Part shown: piece after piece, positions 7,752 to 35,380 of the stretch
How positions within the stretch are numbered: the stretch's first letter is position 1
How the letters are laid out: every line of letters begins with the position of its first letter
Origin: Nitrospirota bacterium
GTDB lineage: Bacteria; Nitrospirota; Thermodesulfovibrionia; Thermodesulfovibrionales; Magnetobacteriaceae
Assembly: GCA_015233725.1 (NCBI GenBank)
Contig: JADFXD010000025.1
Span: 1-35,380 of the forward strand
DNA: 35,380 nt
Direction: 5' to 3'
Translations under genes and position numbers: made by a program
Notes under the pieces: generated by a model
The model's input: only the letters and a program-made list of their open reading frames with translations
Databases searched by the model: none
Told to the model about the DNA's origin: nothing

Positions 7752-7858
7752 TAAAGAGGGGGGGATAGGTGCACGCCTGGAGCGAAAAAGACCAGGAGCG
7801 TCCTGGAGCGAAAAAGAAGCTCCGCCGCCCCCTTTTTTTCTCTCTTTTCTTAGGACTG
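7752..7858. repeat. Palindromic repeat cluster right of the CARF-HEPN-mCpol gene
   Basis: Contains GGGGGGG, two copies of CCTGGAGCGAAAAAGA about 26 bp apart, the hairpin CCAGGAGCGTCCTGG (7792-7806), and an AAGCTCCGCCGCCCCC arm. The same modules occur at 9050-9130, 16630-16655, 19010-19085 and 29197-29260. It may serve as a terminator for the gene before it, since a pyrimidine-rich TTTTTTTCTC run follows. Confidence 0.6.
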
Positions 7859-9007: not shown

Positions 9008-9135
9008 AACACCAAGGGGTCAAGAAATAAAAACAGGAAGAGAAGAAAAAAAAGGGGCGGCGGAGCTTCTTTACCGCTCCAGGACGCTCCTGGCCCCCTT
9101 CAGACCCCCCTGCACCCTTACCCCATAATTCTCAA
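9008..9135. repeat. MITE-related palindromic repeat cluster
   Basis: Reverse-orientation module: GGGGCGGCGGAGCTTCTTT, hairpin CCAGGACGCTCCTGG (9079-9093), GGCCCCCTTCAGACCCCCC and CCCCATAATTCTCAATC, matching the inner parts of the elements at 17686 and 20826. No terminal repeats remain. It fills the gap between the KAP-like gene and fabG. Confidence 0.6.
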
Positions 9136-14205: not shown

Positions 14206-14329
14206 AATGCCGACAAAAACAAAAATCCAGTGAATTCTTCTTCACATGCAGAAAGCATTATATATTGAAACCGTTATATGAATCATCAAAGCGCATAAAC
14301 AAATCGTTGATCCACCAATCATAGCCACG

Positions 14330-14405
14330 CAGGAAGGGGTCAAGGGGGCTGGCCCCCTTGCAGGGGGGTAAGGGGGGGCGGAGCCGCCCCCTTTCTTGTT
14401 TTTTG
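14330..14405. repeat. Inner fragment of the MITE family
   Basis: AGGGGGCTGGCCCCCTTG and GGGGGGCGGAGCCGCCCCC form two strong hairpins, as in the elements at 17686, 20826 and 31032, and are followed by a T-rich run. On the + strand the second hairpin plus its T-run looks like an intrinsic terminator; it lies next to the 3' end of the glycoside-hydrolase-like gene. Confidence 0.65.
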
Positions 14406-18989: not shown

Positions 18990-19090
18990 GAATAATGGGG
19001 TCAAGGGCACTGGTCTCCTTGCAGGGGGTTCTAAATGGGCCAGGAGCGTCCTGGAGCGACAAAGAAACGGAGCTGCCCCTTTCTTCTTCT
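18990..19090. repeat. MITE-related fragment with GGAGCGTCC hairpin
   Basis: AATAATGGGGTCAAGGGCAC and GGTCTCCTTGCAGGGGG come from the MITE interior; the hairpin CCAGGAGCGTCCTGG is at 19040-19054; a CGGAGCTGCCCCTTTCTTC arm follows. Terminal repeats are absent. It fills the gap between mdh and ndk. Confidence 0.6.
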
Positions 19091-22766: not shown

Positions 22767-23276
22767 ATGGATAACAGAGACAACATAGAGTTTGCCCTAC
22801 TGAGGGCGGCTGGATGTGCCCCAAACGTGATTGGGCACTGCAAGGCGGTCAAGGAGCTTGCCGTAGCGATTGCCAGTAAGGTTGACGGCGTAGACATGGA
22901 GCTTGTCAGGCGGGGAGCGCTGCTTCACGACATAGGCAGGAGCAAGACCCACGACATCAATCACGCCGTTGAGGGTGTGAGGATCGCCACGAGCATTGGC
23001 ATAGAACAGCCCGTCGTCGACATCATCGAGCGACACATCGGCAGCGGAATATCCAAGGAGGAGGCTCAGGGCCTTGGACTGCCCATCAATGACTACTTCC
23101 CAATGACAACCGAGGAGAAGATCGTCTCCTACGCCGACTCCCTCATAAGTGGGATACGCGTTATGAGCTTTGAGGAGACCCTTGCGCACATTAAGAGAAT
23201 CCTCGGTGCGGAGCACCCCGCAGTGGAACGTTTTACGGCGCTACACCAGGAGATACAATCGTGGATAAGACAGTAG
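22767..23276 (+). CDS. HD-domain (HDIG) metal-dependent phosphohydrolase
   Basis: 169-residue soluble HD-superfamily protein of the TIGR00295 type. Metal ligands: H24 in VIGHCKAV, H54-D55 in LLHDIGRSK, with H66 and H90 further on and a late Asp in SYADSLI. Family members hydrolyse phosphomonoesters or phosphodiesters of nucleotides; the substrate is not known. Its end overlaps the start of the exporter gene by 16 nt, indicating a common operon. Confidence 0.85.
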   Translation: MDNRDNIEFALLRAAGCAPNVIGHCKAVKELAVAIASKVDGVDMELVRRGALLHDIGRSKTHDINHAVEGVRIATSIGIEQPVVDIIERHIGSGISKEEAQGLGLPINDYFPMTTEEKIVSYADSLISGIRVMSFEETLAHIKRILGAEHPAVERFTALHQEIQSWIRQ

Positions 23277-25003
23277 CCAGGAGGCTGATCGCCCTCGCAC
23301 GACCCTATCTGTCAAAGGTGATAGTGGCGCTCTTGTGCGGGTTGCTTGCATCGGCCGTGATGGCTGCCATAGCGTGGCTGGTCAAGCCGGCCCTAGACAT
23401 CATCTTCATGGACAAGAAGTACCAGTACCTTAAACTGCTTCCCTTTGCCGTTATATTGTTGTTTGCGACGAAGGGGTTCTTGCATTTTTGCCAGCAGTAC
23501 CTGATCCAGTCTGCCGGCCTGTCCCTGATCAGGGACACCCAGAGCAAGCTGCACAACCACATTCTATACATGCCCGTTGAGTATTTCGACAAGGAGACAT
23601 CGGGAATACTGATATCCAGGGTCGTAAATGATGTCACGCTCATCGACAAGGTCATCTCCGATGTCATCAGGGCGACGGTGGTTGAGATGCCGAAGATATT
23701 CATCCTGTTGGGGATAGCGTTTTACAGGAAGTGGGACCTGACCCTGGTAAGCCTCCTTCTGGTGCCAGCTCTGGGCATCAGCGCCAGGAAACTCGGCAGG
23801 AAGGTAAAGCAAAAGGTCGCTGCGGCACAGAAAAACATGTCCCTGTTGACCCACAAACTATCTGAGTCCATAACGGGCATAAGGGTCATAAAGGTCTTTA
23901 ATCGCGAACCCTACCGAAACGAACGATTCATAGAGAGCAGCCTGGGCGTCTACAAGGACAACACCAAGGCCATAAAGTACAAGGAACTCAACAAACTGGT
24001 TGTAGACTTAATGACCGGCCTGGCCATAGGCTCGGTGTTGTTTTATGGCGGCATGAAGGTGGTCTCGGCAGAGATCACCCCTGGGGACTTTGCCTCCATC
24101 CTTACGGCCATATACCTCGTCTTTAGCCCAGTCAAGATAGTTGCCGAGTCATACACCACGCTGCAGAGCGTCAGGGCAGCCATCGAGCGGATTGACCACG
24201 TCCTTGAAACCCCGGTTGAGGACAAGGGCAAGGTTGAGATCAAGCAGTTTAATGATTGCATCAGCCTTGAGGGCGTGACGTTTCGCTATAACCCCGATGC
24301 ACCCCCCGTGTTAGAGGACATAAACCTCACGATCAAAAAGGGCGAGGTGTTGGCAATAATCGGTCCAAGTGGCACCGGCAAGAGTACGCTCGTCAATCTG
24401 CTGCCGAGGTTCTACGTCCCCAGCGCGGGTAGCATAAAGATCGATGGCATTGACCTCATGGAGCTTGATATCCAGTCTCTCAGGGGGATGATAGCCACGG
24501 TCAGCCAGGACATCGTCCTGTTTAACGACACTATCAGGGAGAACATCGCCTTTGGCAATGCCCAGTGTAGCCTTGAGCAGGTCAAGTGGGCGGCGGATAT
24601 GGCCTACGCTACGGAGTTTATCGAGCGATTGCCAGATGGCTTTGACACCGTTGTTGGCGAGCGAGGGCTGACGCTCTCCGGAGGTCAGAGGCAGCGTATC
24701 GCCATAGCCAGGGCACTGCTTAAAGACCCGCCTATCCTGATCCTCGATGAGGCAACCTCCTCGCTTGATAACGCCTCGGAGGCCATTGTCCAGAAGGCCC
24801 TCGATGGCCTGATGTTAGATCGGTCTCGCTCCTTACAGTCGCTGGGTCGGTCTCGCTCCTTACAGTCGCTGGGTCGGACAACCATAATCATCGCCCACAG
24901 ATTATCAACCATCAAGAACGCCGACAGGGTGATCGCCATAGAAAACGGCAAGGCACGCACAGTAACAACCCCCTCAGACCCACTGTTAAGTACCTGCCCA
25001 TAA
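23261..25003 (+). CDS. msbA: MsbA-type lipid A/lipid exporter (ABC half-transporter), with in-frame insertion and altered C-terminus
   Basis: 580-residue half-transporter with a six-helix membrane domain (residues 1-320) and an ATPase domain. Walker A GPSGTGKST is at 368-376, signature LSGGQ at 472-476, Walker B D496-E497, H-loop H546. GTG start at 23261 overlaps the HD gene. Two exceptional points: residues 521-538 are two identical 9-residue units (RSRSLQSLG twice) from a 27-bp duplication placed between LMLD and RTTIIIAHRLS, in the ATPase domain just before the H-loop; and after ENGKA the usual tail (typically an EGTHEEL-like stretch plus a final helix) is replaced, the stop lying inside a MITE end at 24989. 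Whether the protein is still active is uncertain, although all ATP-binding motifs are intact. Confidence 0.9.
   Translation: MDKTVARRLIALARPYLSKVIVALLCGLLASAVMAAIAWLVKPALDIIFMDKKYQYLKLLPFAVILLFATKGFLHFCQQYLIQSAGLSLIRDTQSKLHNHILYMPVEYFDKETSGILISRVVNDVTLIDKVISDVIRATVVEMPKIFILLGIAFYRKWDLTLVSLLLVPALGISARKLGRKVKQKVAAAQKNMSLLTHKLSESITGIRVIKVFNREPYRNERFIESSLGVYKDNTKAIKYKELNKLVVDLMTGLAIGSVLFYGGMKVVSAEITPGDFASILTAIYLVFSPVKIVAESYTTLQSVRAAIERIDHVLETPVEDKGKVEIKQFNDCISLEGVTFRYNPDAPPVLEDINLTIKKGEVLAIIGPSGTGKSTLVNLLPRFYVPSAGSIKIDGIDLMELDIQSLRGMIATVSQDIVLFNDTIRENIAFGNAQCSLEQVKWAADMAYATEFIERLPDGFDTVVGERGLTLSGGQRQRIAIARALLKDPPILILDEATSSLDNASEAIVQKALDGLMLDRSRSLQSLGRSRSLQSLGRTTIIIAHRLSTIKNADRVIAIENGKARTVTTPSDPLLSTCP
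24821..24874 (+). repeat. Two perfect 27-bp tandem units inside msbA
   Basis: Copies at 24821-24847 and 24848-24874 are identical and contain CTCCTTACAGTCGCTGGG. The same core occurs outside this gene at 26238-26254, 26809-26826 (one mismatch) and, as a variant, at 26148-26165. Confidence 0.9.
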
Positions 25004-25676: not shown

Positions 25677-26231
25677 TTACAACAATCCCGCGTGTCTTAA
25701 GGCCTCTTTTAATTCAGGGTCTTTCTCAGCTTTTTCTCTGATTGCTATTTCCAGTTTCTCAGCTTTCTCTACCCGAGCCTCAAGTTCTTTAGTGGTTCTT
25801 ACCACAGGGGCCAATGTTGTTCGTCTGTCCCATAGGATGAACCCGACAAGAGCAAGCATGCTGCTCATTGTTATGCTAATTATTGCATACATAAGCCCTA
25901 TGACATAGTCAAACTTCTGGTTGGTGGCCTTGATGTTATCATCAATCCTCTGGTTGACAGCCTTGAGACCGTCGTCGATCTTTTGGTTGGTGGCATCGAT
26001 TCTCTGGTTGACGGCCTTGAGACCATCGTCGATTTTTTGGTTTGTGGCCTTTAAGCCCTCTTCGATCTTAACTTCCATCCGAATCATCCGATCCCTGTCC
26101 GCCTGGGTGAATGACGAATCCGCCGCCTCCGCAACTGACGGCCCCGGCCCAGCGAATGTAAGGAGAGAACCCGACCAAACTCCAATTGCCTGGCTTATCA
26201 GCAAGCCAAAAAGTATCACAAATGTCCTCAT
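25677..26231 (-). CDS. Coiled-coil membrane protein, array paralogue 1
   Basis: 184 residues. Signal peptide (MRTFVILFGLLISQAIGVWS), a conserved SVAEAADSSFTQADRDRM block, then a coiled coil made of 11-residue units (KAVNQRIDDGL type), a membrane helix near residues 110-135, and a conserved tail LWDRRTTLAPVVRTTKELEA ending ELKEALRHAGLL. Compared with paralogue 4 the signal region has an extra SLLTFAGPG encoded by a copy of the short repeat CTCCTTACATTCGCTGGG. Ribosome site AAGGAG lies 7 nt before the ATG. Function unknown; topology suggests an envelope-anchored coiled coil. Confidence 0.8.
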   Translation of the reverse strand: MRTFVILFGLLISQAIGVWSGSLLTFAGPGPSVAEAADSSFTQADRDRMIRMEVKIEEGLKATNQKIDDGLKAVNQRIDATNQKIDDGLKAVNQRIDDNIKATNQKFDYVIGLMYAIISITMSSMLALVGFILWDRRTTLAPVVRTTKELEARVEKAEKLEIAIREKAEKDPELKEALRHAGLL

Positions 26232-26265
26232 AATTCACTCCTTACAGTCGCTGGTATGATTGCAG

Positions 26266-26802
26266 TTACAACAACCCCGCGTGCCTTAAGGCCTCTTTTA
26301 ATTCGGGGTCTTTCTCGGCTTTTTCTTTAATCGCGAGTTCCAGTTTCTCAGCTTTCTCTACCCGAGCCTCAAGTTCCCTGGTAGTTCTCACCACAGGGGC
26401 CAATGTTGTTCGTCTGTCCCACAAGATGAATCCGACAAGAGCAAACATTCCGCTAAGTAGTACATACATCAGGCCTTTGTTATCGTAGAACTTCTGGTTG
26501 ATGGACTTGAGGCTGTCATCAATCCTCTGATTGATGGCATCGAACCTCTGATTGATGGCATCGAACCTCTGGTTGGTGGCCTTGATGTTATCATCAATCC
26601 TCTGGTTGACAGCCTTTAAGCCCTCTTCGATCTTAACTTCCATCCGAATCATCCGATCCCTGTCCGCCTGGGTGAATGACGAATCCGCCGCCTCTGCGAC
26701 TGTAAGGAGCCAGGAGTGTCCTGGAGCAGTAAAGAACGGACCCGAATTAACAGCCACTACCGTGATAAACAGCCAGGCAAAAAGTATAATAAATATCTTC
26801 AT
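26266..26802 (-). CDS. Coiled-coil membrane protein, array paralogue 2
   Basis: 178 residues with the same plan as paralogue 1: signal segment, AEAADSSFTQADRDRM, coiled coil, membrane helix and RRTTLAPVVRTTRELEA tail. Its coil mixes 11-residue (KAVNQRIDDNI) and 7-residue (NQRFDAI) units. The signal-peptide region carries FFTAPGHSWLLT, encoded by the palindromic repeat TGCTCCAGGACACTCCTGG joined to CTCCTTACAG (26700-26737); paralogue 4 lacks it. Ribosome site AAGGAG precedes the ATG. Confidence 0.8.
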   Translation of the reverse strand: MKIFIILFAWLFITVVAVNSGPFFTAPGHSWLLTVAEAADSSFTQADRDRMIRMEVKIEEGLKAVNQRIDDNIKATNQRFDAINQRFDAINQRIDDSLKSINQKFYDNKGLMYVLLSGMFALVGFILWDRRTTLAPVVRTTRELEARVEKAEKLELAIKEKAEKDPELKEALRHAGLL

Positions 26803-26837
26803 AATTCACTCCTTACAGTTGCTGGGTATGATTGCAG

Positions 26838-27278
26838 TTACAACAACCCCACGTGCCTTAAGGCCTCTTTCAATTCAGGGTCTTTCTCTGCCCTTTCTTT
26901 CATTACGAGTACCAGTTTCTCTGTCCGATCTTCAAGTTCCTTTGTAGTTCTTACCACAGGGGCCAGGGTTGTTCGTCTGTCCCATAATATAAACCCGACA
27001 AGAACAAACATTCCGCTAAGTAGTACATACATCAGACCTCTGTTATCATCGAACCTCTGATTGATTGCCTTGAGGCTATCGTCGATTCTTTGGTTTATGG
27101 CCTTTAAGCCCTCGTCGAGCTTAATCTCCAGCCGGGTTATCCGATCCCTGTCCGCCTGGGTGAATGACGAATCGGCAGCGTTAGCAACTGCAATGAGCGG
27201 CTTCGAGCTAACGGCCACTGTCGGGTTTATCAGTAAGCCAAAAAGCATCACGCTAAAAAGCATCATCAGTGTCTTCAT
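26838..27278 (-). CDS. Coiled-coil membrane protein, array paralogue 3
   Basis: 146 residues, the shortest intact member. Signal segment MKTLMMLFSVMLFGLLINPT, AADSSFTQADRDRITRLE, only two or three coil units (KAINQRIDDSL, KAINQRFDDNR), a membrane helix and the common C-terminal tail with ELKEALRHVGLL. It starts 8 nt after the stop of paralogue 4 with no ribosome site of its own, so coupled translation is likely. Confidence 0.8.
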   Translation of the reverse strand: MKTLMMLFSVMLFGLLINPTVAVSSKPLIAVANAADSSFTQADRDRITRLEIKLDEGLKAINQRIDDSLKAINQRFDDNRGLMYVLLSGMFVLVGFILWDRRTTLAPVVRTTKELEDRTEKLVLVMKERAEKDPELKEALRHVGLL

Positions 27279-27286
27279 GATTGTAG

Positions 27287-27793
27287 TTATAGCAACCCCG
27301 CGTGTCTTAAGGCCTCTTTCAGCTCCGGGTCTTTCTCTGCCCTTTCTTTCATTACGAGTACCAGTTTTTCTGTCTGTGCCTCAAGTTCCTTAGTAGTTCT
27401 CACCACAGGGGCCAATGTTGTTCGTCTGTCCCATAGGATGAACCCGACAAGAGCAAACATTCCGCTCATTGTTAGGCTGAGTATTACATACATCAGTCCT
27501 CTGATCTCGTCGAACCTCTGATTGATGGCATCGAACCTCTGATTGATGGCATCGAACCTCTGGTTGGTGGCCTTGATGTTATCATCAATCCTCTGGTTGA
27601 CGGCCTTGAGACCGTCGTCGATCTTTTGGTTGACGGCCTTTAAGCCCTCTTCGATCTTAACTTCCATCCGAGTCATCCGATCCCTGTCCGCCTGGGTGAA
27701 TGACGAATCCGCCGCCTCTGCGACTGACGGACCCGACCAAACTCCAATTGCCTGGCTTATCAGCAAGCCAAAAAGTATAACAAATATCTTCAT
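27287..27793 (-). CDS. Coiled-coil membrane protein, array paralogue 4
   Basis: 168 residues. Signal peptide nearly identical to paralogue 1 (FVILFGLLISQAIGVWSG), SVAEAADSSFTQADRDRM, coil with 11-residue units followed by three 7-residue NQRFDAI/NQRFDEI units, membrane helix and common tail. Ribosome site AAAGGAG before the ATG lies in the end of the truncated paralogue 5, whose stop overlaps this ATG (ATGA). Confidence 0.8.
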   Translation of the reverse strand: MKIFVILFGLLISQAIGVWSGPSVAEAADSSFTQADRDRMTRMEVKIEEGLKAVNQKIDDGLKAVNQRIDDNIKATNQRFDAINQRFDAINQRFDEIRGLMYVILSLTMSGMFALVGFILWDRRTTLAPVVRTTKELEAQTEKLVLVMKERAEKDPELKEALRHAGLL

Positions 27794-31029: not shown

Positions 31030-31146
31030 TAAGTACATGGACAAAAGTTTTTATATAACATTATGATTGAGCATTATGGGGTCAAGGGGACTGGTCCCCT
31101 TGCAGGGGGGTCTGAGGGGGGGCAGCGCCGCCCCCTTCTTTCTTTA
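31030..31146 (+). mobile_element. MITE copy lacking its right end
   Basis: TA (31030-31031), AGTACATGGACAAAAGTTTT, then AATTATG-like GCATTATGGGGTCAAGGGG, hairpins AAGGGGACTGGTCCCCTT and GGGGGGCAGCGCCGCCCCC, and CTTCTTTCTTTA. The GGGCAGGTACT end is missing. It lies between the convergent 3' ends of phoU and the giant kinase, so its hairpins could serve as a bidirectional terminator. Confidence 0.65.
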
Positions 31147-31151
31147 TCTTG

Positions 31152-34100
31152 TTAGTCTGAGAGGAGTTTTTGGGCTTCTGTGCGCACCTTTTCGCTGTTG
31201 TCTGTGAGGGCCTTTTGGGCGAGCCTCTTTGCCTCTGAGCCTTTGAAGAACTCAAGGGCGGCCACGGCGTTTTTCCTTACCTCGTCGCTCTTGTTGCCCA
31301 TCAGCCTTTCAATTGTCTTAAGGGCAGCATCGACATCAAGCCTCTTGCTTGCTATTATCTTCCTGATGTAAGGCGCTATTGGCTCCGTGTCAATGTCGTC
31401 TCTTAGGGCATACTCTATTATGGCATTTACGGCCTCTGTGCTACCCATGTAGACAATGGTCTGCGCAACGAGCCGTTGCCTGGCGCCTTTGTCTACAGCA
31501 TCCTGACTAAATTCCCAGGCCTTAGGCGGATCGGTAAGGGCAACAAGCAGGGGGGAGAGGACATCGTTGCCTGCATAGGAGAGCAGATAGCTAAGGGCAG
31601 TGAGTGTCTCAGCGTTATTGCCACCTAAAAACTGAGAGATCAGAGCATCCTGGACATCTTTGCCCGCGCTTAAGACAACCAGACAGCTAACATTCTGTTG
31701 TGTCCGTGGCGGTGTTGACATTATGGCGGTCAGGTGTGTCTTTACCATATAAAAATAACTGTCCTTATATACGTTAAGGTCTTTAATATCGCAATTACCC
31801 GGGGACTTACCCTTGACGTAATCAAGCGCCTCGTGTGCCCTATCGTCGTTGGTAATGAAGAGGGCAAACCTGCTCAATGCCAACTCGTTATAGCGGTCCT
31901 TGCGCGAGGTATATATATAGGCCGCAAGCCCCACAACGACAAGGACTATCAACACCGCAACCGTCAACCTCAATATCTTTGTCCTGTCTGTCCTGGCATG
32001 TTCTTGCTGGCTTATTTCGTCCTTGCTCTTGGGTTCGTCCATCTCAAGGGTATGGAACTTAGGCACCGATTCCGTCCATTTATCTTGATACGAGGGCAGT
32101 TTGTCCTTTAACAGCTCCTCAGAGGCATACTCAAAACCCGCAGCCATAATCCTCGATCTCAGGATATCCAGGTCATCCTCGCTCCATGAGGGTTTGTTCT
32201 TTTCGACATTGCCCCGCCTGTACTGGTAGGATAGAAACTCAGAGACGATGCCATTTGCCTGCGTCTTGCAGTGTATGTCCTGTTGTTGGTCGAGCGTCCA
32301 GTTGAGAAACCACCTTATTACCTTTGAATCCATGCCGGCAGAGTACAGCAACCAGCCATCAGGGCTAAAGACGACGGCGCTGACGGCATCTCCATGCCCC
32401 TGTAGTTTTTGCAGGCACTCCTGGTTGTGGATGCTCCACAGAGACACCGTTGCATCCTTACCCCCGGAGGCAAAATACTGGCCATCGGGACTAAAGGCCA
32501 CGCACGTTGCTCCCTCCTCGTGGGCGTCATAGCGAGCTTGCAATCTCCTTGTGTTGTAGTTCCAGAGGCCAATTGAGCCGTCCTGACAGGCCGTAAGAAA
32601 CATGGAGTTATCGGGGCTTATGGCAGGGCTTAAGGCAATGGCGTTTATAATGCCATTATGCTCAACCCTGTCGCGTTCCTTCCCAGTTACGGAGTCAAAA
32701 AAGACCAGAGAGCCATCCTCCAGGGCGGCTATAACGGTCTTTTCGTTGTAACTCAAGGCAATGGCCATCACCCCACAGTCGGCAACGTCGAAGCGTCCCA
32801 TGTAGTTATCCGTATCTGTGCGCCATAGCCTGATGATGCCATAGTTATCCTTATTCGTGCCTGCTGAAAACAGGTGTTGTCCACTGCGCGTAAGCGCCAT
32901 AGAGCTAAGACCTCCATACTGGCGGCTATAAGCTATAAGGGGGACGCTGGAGTCGTCGTTCCAACAGATAACCTTGCCACTATCACAACCAGTAAAGACA
33001 TAGTTGTTACAATAACTTAGCACAAGGGCGGTTATGACGCCTGTGAAATTCTTGTCCCTGCCTTTAGAACTGTCGTAATCACTGCAATCATAGAGGCATT
33101 GCGTATGTTTCGTTGTGATATCAAACATTGCTGCCCTACCACCTGTGCCGGCTACAAACAAATGTTCACCACTGTATGACAGCCTCAGCGCTGTGATACC
33201 ATCCTCATCAAGGGGGCTGTATTCATCCGTCTTGATGGGCGCACGGATTGAGCTGCGTTTATATATTAACGGGATACTGGCTAATAGTTCGATGACCTTT
33301 GCGTTGTCTGCATAGCCTGAGAGCTCTCGAGCGCTGTCTATGAGGCTTAATACTTTTGGGTAGTCTTTGGTCTCTAGGCTTTGTTTTGCCGCTCTTATCC
33401 TTCTGTCAAACTCAAACCTGATGTCCCCTTTTCTGAGGGAGGCCGGAGGGACCAGGGCATAGTTGCAGGCGTATCTGTTGAGGTAGTTCAGGCAGATGAG
33501 CTCGTTATCCTGGGCAAACAATATCTGATGCCCCCTGTCACTTGTAGCCGCATCCGCGATAGGCCCCTTATACTTGAATTGCGTATGCAGCAGGCCGTTT
33601 TTCAGGTCTCGCACGTGCACCGTCCTCTGTCCGGTTGACAGGGCGAAGTTGTCATCATGGCTGAAGGCAACTGAGGTTATCCTTCCCCAATGTCCTCTAA
33701 AGGTGCTGATGCACTCTCCGGTGTCTGTGTCAAAGAGGCATACGGTATCATCTATGCCCCCTGTTAGGAGACGTTTGCCATCGGCGCTCAAGGCGATCGT
33801 GGTTGAACCGGTGAACTGGCCTTGACAGCTCAGTAATAATCTTCCAGTCTTTGTATCCCACTTACATGGAGCAGAGGACTTCATGGCGGAGTAGACGTAC
33901 TTACCGTCCTTTGAGATGGCGATGGCATACACCGCCTGGCCCTTTGACGCTCCAGGACGCTCCTGGTTCTTTGACGCTCCAGGACGCTCCTGGCTCTTTG
34001 TATTAAACACGCCGGCTCCCTTGCCACGTCGCAGGTCCCAGGCGCGTATCGTACCGTCCATCGAGGCCGATACCGCGTAGGCGGTGCTGCCGACAAAGAG

Positions 34101-35380
34101 CACGTCCGTGATGATATCTTCATGTCCGGTAAAGGTTTGCAGGCACTGTGCCTGCCCTATATCCCACAGGGCGATGCTCATGTCCTGGGAGGCCGAGAGG
34201 GCATAGCGGTGGTTGTTGCTTACGGCAAGGGCAGTGATCCCCATTGTATGACCCTTTAGGGTGGTAACGACCTTACCCGTGTGGAGAGCCACGAGGATGA
34301 GCCTTGAGTCGTTGCAACCTATCATTGCCATTTGAGGGACCATCTGGTCATTATCCGCTGTGGTATCCGACACGAGGGCAAGGGCGGTTATGCCGGAGTG
34401 TTCGAGAGCGAATCTGCTGGCTATGGCAAAGCCTGGCAGGGTGATATGGACGGCCTCCTCAATTGATTCTGGAAGCTCTCTGTATCGTTGCCTGCTGGCG
34501 GTATAAAATGCCTCGTAGTCCTCGTTGAGGTTTTTGAGGGCGAGGGCGTACCCTGTCACAACGGATGGGTCCTCCTTACCGGCCTGGATCAGTCGATTGA
34601 GGGCGGTCTTGGTCTCCCTCCATGAGTTGGCATCCTCGATGGGGGTTTCAGCGCTACAGTTCAGGAGGCCGACGTCACGGTAGACCTCAAGGTTGTCCGA
34701 ACCTGCCTCCGTCAACCCTTTGAGTATGTGGAGCGCCCTGTGCTCGTTTGAAAAAAACAGGGACAGCTTACCCATGAAGAACCTACCATGATTGGGCAGG
34801 GACAGTGTGTCGATGAACTCCTGCATCTTACCAAATGCCTCATCCTCGGACAGCACCCCTCTCTTACACTGGTAGAGTAAGAGGTTAAAGGCGGCCTGCT
34901 GGTGGAGCGGTTGTCGGTTAAGGGCATCTTTCCAGGCGCCTTCGGCCTTCTGCAACTGATTTATCGTGGCATATGAGACCCCCTGGTTGTTGTAGGAATC
35001 CGGTGCGAGCTCCTCCTGGCGTGCATCGGAGCGCGGGTACTCGTTACCGGTGAGGCGCTTGTAGATACCCTTTAGGCGGTCTCTGATCTCGGCGAAGTCC
35101 CTGGGTCTGTCGTATGGATCCTTTGCCAGACACTGAAGCATCAACTGGGCGAGTTCCTCGTCTATCGTTGGGGTAAACTCCGTCGGGTGAGGCGGGCTTG
35201 TCTCTGTGTGGAGCCTCTTCCACACGGTTATCTGGTAGAAGATGACACTGCTACGCTCCTGGTCTGTCAGCAAAAACGGGCGTCTTGAGCAGAAAAACTC
35301 ATACAGCATACATCCATACGCATAGATATCGGCGGGGAAGCCTGCATTGTGGGCATCCTCAAACTGCTCCGGGGCCATGT
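31152..35380 (-). CDS. Giant Ser/Thr protein kinase with WD40 propellers, membrane helix and HEAT repeats (partial, 5' end outside window)
   Basis: At least 1408 residues; the kinase N-lobe lies beyond the window. The visible part begins at the activation-segment APE motif (MAPEQFEDAHNAGFPADIYAYGCMLYEFF, with the subdomain IX Asp), ends the kinase C-lobe near residue 112, and continues with a TPR-like helical stretch (about 125-330). Two WD40 regions follow (about 335-640 and 730-1070) with repeats such as GHTMGITALAVSNNHRYALSAS and VAFSPDGQYFASGGKDATVSLW. One membrane helix is near 1136-1156 (LTVAVLIVLVVVGLAAYIY). The C-terminus (about 1290-1408) is HEAT-like, which would lie outside the cytoplasm. 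Two in-frame 9-residue units (QERPGASKN type) come from a 27-bp duplication at 33942-33995. Probably a membrane scaffold kinase; target unknown. Confidence 0.88.
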   Translation of the reverse strand, partial: MAPEQFEDAHNAGFPADIYAYGCMLYEFFCSRRPFLLTDQERSSVIFYQITVWKRLHTETSPPHPTEFTPTIDEELAQLMLQCLAKDPYDRPRDFAEIRDRLKGIYKRLTGNEYPRSDARQEELAPDSYNNQGVSYATINQLQKAEGAWKDALNRQPLHQQAAFNLLLYQCKRGVLSEDEAFGKMQEFIDTLSLPNHGRFFMGKLSLFFSNEHRALHILKGLTEAGSDNLEVYRDVGLLNCSAETPIEDANSWRETKTALNRLIQAGKEDPSVVTGYALALKNLNEDYEAFYTASRQRYRELPESIEEAVHITLPGFAIASRFALEHSGITALALVSDTTADNDQMVPQMAMIGCNDSRLILVALHTGKVVTTLKGHTMGITALAVSNNHRYALSASQDMSIALWDIGQAQCLQTFTGHEDIITDVLFVGSTAYAVSASMDGTIRAWDLRRGKGAGVFNTKSQERPGASKNQERPGASKGQAVYAIAISKDGKYVYSAMKSSAPCKWDTKTGRLLLSCQGQFTGSTTIALSADGKRLLTGGIDDTVCLFDTDTGECISTFRGHWGRITSVAFSHDDNFALSTGQRTVHVRDLKNGLLHTQFKYKGPIADAATSDRGHQILFAQDNELICLNYLNRYACNYALVPPASLRKGDIRFEFDRRIRAAKQSLETKDYPKVLSLIDSARELSGYADNAKVIELLASIPLIYKRSSIRAPIKTDEYSPLDEDGITALRLSYSGEHLFVAGTGGRAAMFDITTKHTQCLYDCSDYDSSKGRDKNFTGVITALVLSYCNNYVFTGCDSGKVICWNDDSSVPLIAYSRQYGGLSSMALTRSGQHLFSAGTNKDNYGIIRLWRTDTDNYMGRFDVADCGVMAIALSYNEKTVIAALEDGSLVFFDSVTGKERDRVEHNGIINAIALSPAISPDNSMFLTACQDGSIGLWNYNTRRLQARYDAHEEGATCVAFSPDGQYFASGGKDATVSLWSIHNQECLQKLQGHGDAVSAVVFSPDGWLLYSAGMDSKVIRWFLNWTLDQQQDIHCKTQANGIVSEFLSYQYRRGNVEKNKPSWSEDDLDILRSRIMAAGFEYASEELLKDKLPSYQDKWTESVPKFHTLEMDEPKSKDEISQQEHARTDRTKILRLTVAVLIVLVVVGLAAYIYTSRKDRYNELALSRFALFITNDDRAHEALDYVKGKSPGNCDIKDLNVYKDSYFYMVKTHLTAIMSTPPRTQQNVSCLVVLSAGKDVQDALISQFLGGNNAETLTALSYLLSYAGNDVLSPLLVALTDPPKAWEFSQDAVDKGARQRLVAQTIVYMGSTEAVNAIIEYALRDDIDTEPIAPYIRKIIASKRLDVDAALKTIERLMGNKSDEVRKNAVAALEFFKGSEAKRLAQKALTDNSEKVRTEAQKLLSD
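33942..33995 (-). repeat. Two 27-bp tandem palindromic units inside the giant kinase
   Basis: Units 33942-33968 and 33969-33995 differ by one base and both contain GCTCCAGGACGCTCCTGG. On the coding strand they give QERPGASK twice, between two WD40 blades. The same hairpin is found between genes at 7792-7806, 9079-9093 and 19040-19054. Confidence 0.9.

Follow-up and report, generated by a model that had tools for sequence, protein, structure and literature searches.

The kinase gene at the end of the stretch studied here contains a short repeat that also lies between genes, which raises the question of what kind of DNA can enter a conserved reading frame without breaking it. The window, a stretch of 35,380 nucleotides that forms one contig of the 3.32-Mb draft genome of a Candidatus Magnetobacterium, was of interest because a palindromic 27-bp repeat had been predicted to sit twice in tandem, in frame, between the WD40 blades of the kinase and to recur elsewhere in the manner of Rickettsia palindromic elements (RPEs). 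It was compared with the congeners Candidatus Magnetobacterium casense MYR-1 and the Nitrospirae bins nMYbin3 and MYbinv3; all four genomes of the genus are drafts, the present assembly being about 89% complete and one of the others (G003) 56% complete. The window had no Rfam match, and no report of such repeats in Magnetobacterium was found in the literature searched, which is weak evidence given the limited coverage of that literature. Comparison of these genomes indicates that the genus Magnetobacterium probably has a set of ultrasmall mobile elements, the repeat among them, and that their units of 24 or 27 bp would be among the smallest mobile elements on record.

Exact copies of the 18-bp core GCTCCAGGACGCTCCTGG, for which the chance expectation within the window is 0.01, were located at positions 33949, 33976 and 9076 on the plus strand and at 7792 and 19040 on the minus strand, and a copy with one mismatch was located at 26710 (minus strand). 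The tandem predicted in the kinase was present as two adjoining 27-bp units (Table 1), and among the remaining predicted positions a single one had to be corrected, from 9079 to 9076. Alignment of the exact copies revealed a conserved TTCTTTNNC preceding the core, and the full unit of this repeat, hereafter family A, is CCAGGAGCGTCCTGGAGCGNNAAAGAA in hairpin-to-tail direction (27 bp). The predicted unit length held, while the description as a palindrome applies to 15 of the 27 bp only, the rest being a tail. The first 15 nt consist of a 6-bp stem and a 3-nt loop and fold better than nearly all shuffled sequences. Compensatory changes were found in the stem, which occurred as CCAGGA/TCCTGG (137 copies), CCAGGT/ACCTGG (22), GCAGGA/TCCTGC (6) and GCAGGT/ACCTGC (3), and zero copies had a broken inner pair where the outer pair was the usual CG; two pairs only were tested in this count, since the pattern fixed the four central stem letters. 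Neighbouring family A units were spaced by 27 bp in 25 of 28 pairs and always had the same orientation. Genome-wide, the core was found 393 times with up to two mismatches (reversed-pattern control, 0), and with up to one mismatch there were 306 copies in this genome, 31 in MYR-1, 19 in nMYbin3 and 1 in MYbinv3, while two of 36 other relatives had one isolated match each at this threshold. Such draft copy counts are slightly inflated because one locus is present on two contigs (L145 1221, L146 5977). Matches to the core in Actinomyces, Oscillospiraceae, Bryobacterales, Elusimicrobia and a Deltaproteobacterium were single, lacked the flanking TTCTTTNNC and were at chance level in 257 Gb, and one IMG/VR match, an isolated hairpin on a phage contig of 37% GC that has no other unit, was judged to be due to chance or to an unrelated terminator.

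Table 1. Repeat units and their hosts in the window (positions in the 35,380-nucleotide window).
Feature	Position	Strand	Remarks
WD40-repeat Ser/Thr kinase hosting the insert	31152..35378	-	N-terminal part beyond contig end
Family A unit, kinase copy 1	33940..33966	+	TTCTTT..CCTGG orientation; gene and hairpin-to-tail direction on -
Family A unit, kinase copy 2	33967..33993	+	Head to tail with copy 1
Family A unit, intergenic	7792..7818	-	In GC-rich terminator-like hairpin; a second, degenerate unit follows
Family A unit, intergenic	9067..9093	+	In terminator-like hairpin (GGGGCGGCGGAGC / unit / CCCCC)
Family A unit, intergenic	19040..19066	-	In terminator-like hairpin
Family A unit, in small paralogue 2	26710..26736	-	One core mismatch; in frame, FFTAPGHSW, near signal peptide
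Partial family B unit	26695..26709	-	GCTCCTTACAGTCGC; joined directly to the A unit at 26710..26736
Two tandem family B units, in ABC transporter	24820..24873	+	27 bp each, in frame
GC-rich terminator-like repeat of the A-hosting family	14329..14391	+	Without A unit
GC-rich terminator-like repeat	31071..31133	+	Without A unit

The insert in the kinase gene consists of exactly two family A units, 54 bp in frame that encode 18 amino acids (SQERPGASKNQERPGASK). The host was judged to be a Ser/Thr kinase with WD40 repeats from its MYR-1 orthologue, which has kinase motifs. Seven orthologues, with identities of 64-72% (up to 72% within the genus) or 36-38% (other genera), lacked precisely these 18 residues in a single clean gap, and the absence of the QERPGASK stretch even from the distant ones is in favour of the predicted insertion. 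Since none of the seven has the insert, it was far more likely gained in this lineage than lost seven times. In the predicted structure of the kinase segment (mean pLDDT 84) the insert was the sole internal stretch with values below 50 (residues 124-139 of the segment), and it formed a loop between two strands of the beta-propeller at a WD40 blade junction, in line with the location between blades that had been proposed.

The ABC transporter at 23261-25003 hosts units of a second family, family B, which read RSRSLQSLG twice (RSRSLQSLGRSRSLQSLG) and directly precede the ATPase-domain strand TTIIIAHRLST. Its orthologues in three congeners (83-87% identity) were 18 amino acids shorter over the same span, and from this length we infer that the gap falls at the B units. 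At positions 25677-27793 a small coiled-coil-like protein with repeats like INQRFDAINQRFDA is encoded by four paralogues in tandem; the junction of A and partial B unit near the signal peptide of paralogue 2 recurs in locus L044, and in locus L124 an A unit is found at a place like that in paralogue 2. The GC-rich terminator-like repeat (GGGGTCAAGGGG...GGGGGCGGAGCCGCCCCTTTCTTT) is intergenic and dispersed, being present at window positions 14329, 17725, 22684 and 31071 and at many loci, and it is a host site for A units and for those of another family, D. In this genome many copies of the terminator-like repeat GGGGCGGCTCCGC / CCCCC hold an A unit at the point marked by the slash, and one copy that is filled by A here lacks the unit in MYR-1 and is shorter there by exactly 27 bp. 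Because A always lies at the same point in these repeats, many of these copies may stem from gene conversion or have been carried along with the repeat rather than being fresh insertions; the fixed position suggests either a preference for hairpins or gene conversion between repeats.

Gene context was surveyed in 1.24 Mb of this genome (37%, contigs with matches being favoured), and a simple gene finder was used on the same 1.24 Mb to separate in-gene from intergenic copies. Among the 152 family A arrays, 101 were intergenic, 50 lay within predicted genes and one was at an edge, so the repeat is, as predicted, a dispersed palindrome that occurs both between and inside genes without a break of frame, and its core is present in genes other than the kinase. 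Given a coding fraction of 0.785, the 50 in-gene arrays are far below what uniform insertion would give, a scarcity that fits selection against insertion into genes or a preference for terminators. Nineteen family A arrays had a good coding signal on both sides, and each of the six frame-orientation classes was represented, with the QERPGAxKN reading over-used (11 of 19 arrays, P ~3e-4 after correction). The consensus sequences have five of six reading frames open in families A, B and C, four in D and six in E; such openness is unremarkable alone, since five or more frames are open in 26% of random 27-mers. Because the unit length of every family is a multiple of three and most frames contain no stop codon, each unit that enters a gene lengthens the protein by 8 or 9 amino acids and would usually leave it functional. 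In a 1383-aa sensor-type protein (L097 3759-7910), five separate A arrays of 4, 1, 4, 1 and 2 units (12 in total) were present together with B-type repeats, and most of these units are missing from the MYR-1 orthologue.

When the 1.24 Mb were aligned with the 1.18 Mb surveyed in MYR-1, clean gaps at family A sites were exactly 27, 54 or 108 bp long. Gaps at family B sites measured exactly 27, 54 or 81 bp, those at family C sites 24 or 48 bp and those at family D sites 24 bp. At the empty sites the A units end in CCAGG and AAAGAA. Empty sites within genes were found in both species; for example, MYR-1 has a private in-gene insertion, tatggag[CCAGGAGCGTCCTGGAGCGAAAAAGAA]gcgga, where this genome reads tatggag gcggc. 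A flanking duplication of more than 1 bp was not found at ten clean empty sites, and no target consensus was seen at these ten by eye. Some A sites showed irregular gaps (24, 39 and 46 bp), which look decayed or composite or may reflect alignment slack. At L142 2782-2835, two A units in this genome correspond to CCAGGTGAGACC in MYR-1, a sequence that resembles what is left of a unit after decay.

Further families came from an unbiased gene-by-gene comparison of insertions, and families B to E were counted in 21 genomes; at least these four behave like A or share its layout. Family B (CCCAGCGACTGTAAGGAGCGAATCCGA, 27 bp) was present in 202 copies here and in 11, 3 and 1 copies in the congeners. 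It has the tail and no clear hairpin, and since it folds no better than shuffled sequences, a hairpin is not required by all families. Family C (GTGCGGCTGCACCAGCGATAAGAG, 24 bp; 63 copies here, 2 in MYR-1) showed a paired change in its stem (GGTGC..GCACC and GGTAC..GTACC). Family D (GGGGTGAGGCACCCCTGCCATAAA, 24 bp) had 53 copies here, 88 in MYR-1, 42 and 61 in the remaining congeners and, outside the genus, 4 in two genomes from a different genus within the same family, while family E (GCGGGTGCGACCCGCTGCGACAAGATT, about 27 bp) had 26 copies here and 27, 3 and 15 in the congeners. Families A, C, D and E have the same build, a hairpin of 13-15 nt and after it the tail [A/T]GC[G/C]NNAA[A/G] (type [A/T]GC[G/C]NNAAAGA), and a scan for this layout of hairpin plus tail gave 456 matches in this genome versus 51 in the reversed sequence, and 172 versus 29 in MYR-1. 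Units were also nested in one another: in MYR-1 family D is found within A units as well as in the terminator loop, and in this genome a 24-bp hairpin lies within an in-gene A unit. Since the genomes of the genus differ sharply in copy number, the bursts were species-specific, involving A, B and C here and D in MYR-1.

RPEs, to which the repeat had been likened, are 105-146 bp long and behave in the same way inside genes (PMC2229807), and they have CGTC at one end (PMC3733652). The Magnetobacterium units resemble them in being palindromic, dispersed, and both intergenic and in frame within conserved protein genes; however, RPEs have long stems in addition to their greater length and CGTC end, whereas the present units of 24-27 bp have a 6-bp stem and AAAGAA-type tails, so the likeness is one of behaviour and does not extend to membership. 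PARCELs (palindromic amphipathic repeat coding elements) are likewise palindromic DNA coding for repeated peptide units, but they form 25-residue amphipathic domains (PMC2996958) in repeat proteins, whereas the present units add 8-9 residues to the products of unrelated conserved genes and also lie in intergenic DNA. MITEs are characterized by terminal inverted repeats and target-site duplication, and the ten empty sites described above speak against such an assignment. Head-to-tail arrays of exact units are not known to us from RPEs. The small dispersed repeats (SDRs) of Nostoc punctiforme, reportedly described by Elhai et al. in 2008, are said to be 21-27 nt long and to comprise several families with a common secondary structure, compensatory changes, nested insertions and recent mobility without a known enzyme. 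The Magnetobacterium units match these features in length (24 and 27 bp), in the covarying hairpin (family B excepted) and in nesting, but differ in belonging to another phylum (Nitrospirota), in often forming head-to-tail arrays, and in lying in frame in conserved proteins with whole-codon lengths. Units that are 24-27 bp long, tandem, nested, divided into several families and provided with AAAGAA-type tails appear much closer to Nostoc SDRs than to RPEs, and the SDRs are by description the closest precedent that we know. PMC3116915 also mentions the SDRs.

On this evidence the units probably insert singly or as head-to-tail multiples, without target-site duplication, into genes, GC-rich terminator-like hairpins and other units. 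Most inserts would presumably be near-neutral, and selection would retain units in loops where they read as hydrophilic peptides. Our best guess, in which we have about even confidence, is that the moving form would be a single-stranded hairpin of DNA or RNA, with a cellular enzyme inserting it in trans. A bolder version is tentative: a dedicated Magnetobacterium enzyme might copy single-stranded hairpins of 24-27 nt and paste them without duplication and with a preference for other hairpins, the codon-multiple length being selected for hiding in genes, which would make the units a separate, frame-neutral class. One form of the single-stranded route, in which a short transcript would be reverse-transcribed and pasted in, has reportedly been proposed for the Nostoc SDRs. 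Spread through RNA would agree with the compensatory changes, the A-rich 3' tail and the lack of target-site duplication, and reverse transcriptases are encoded by two congeners (two in G001 and three in G002); however, searches for the domain were negative in the most copy-rich genome (about 89% complete) and in G003 (56% complete), so there is no clear link between reverse transcriptase and units, and we consider this form rather unlikely.

Replication slippage or template switching at hairpins would need no dedicated enzyme and could produce the tandem arrays, the nested copies and the hairpin-rich targets, but single units with exact ends also occur at sites without a local copy or visible homology, and as a general explanation it is unlikely, to about the same degree or slightly more. 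Far less probable is movement by a REP-associated tyrosine transposase (RAYT, Y1_Tnp) of the kind linked to REPINs, which are inverted doublets (PMC3116915). Similarities to REP elements are the short size of 20-40 bp, the palindromic structure, the high copy number (hundreds), the tag on one side of the hairpin and the fact that REPs lie inside genes, too, in some species (PMC3733652). The Magnetobacterium consensus, in contrast, has no GTAG tag, its pairs are direct tandems and not inverted doublets, and its units are inserted exactly into genes. The case against RAYT is that no Y1_Tnp domain was found in the three congeners, all of which carry units, by a search that was positive in 5 of 14 controls, and that this genome yielded only one truncated match near a contig end (L148, G000:C134:30536-30706). 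That the repeat is a conserved functional peptide, such as a selected QERPGAxK motif, and not mobile DNA is hardly credible, for despite the over-use of one of the six frame-orientation classes all six are present, the orthologues lack the peptide and most copies are intergenic. Least credible of all is an artefact of short-read metagenome assembly, since the same units are present in the independent assemblies of MYR-1 and nMYbin3, the former with private in-gene insertions, even though some contigs (C24, C28 and C69) end in A units and one locus is duplicated between contigs.

To our knowledge, no mover of such very small mobile repeats has been known since their description in cyanobacteria. 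Magnetobacterium, a lineage unrelated to those, is now a second case, in which such repeats occur in hundreds of copies and several families, with clear empty sites in a sister species and recent bursts. Owing to these empty sites and recent bursts, the mover of a 27-bp element becomes testable through closely related strains. If the units are mobile as proposed, conserved proteins can gain short loop insertions in whole-codon steps by this route.
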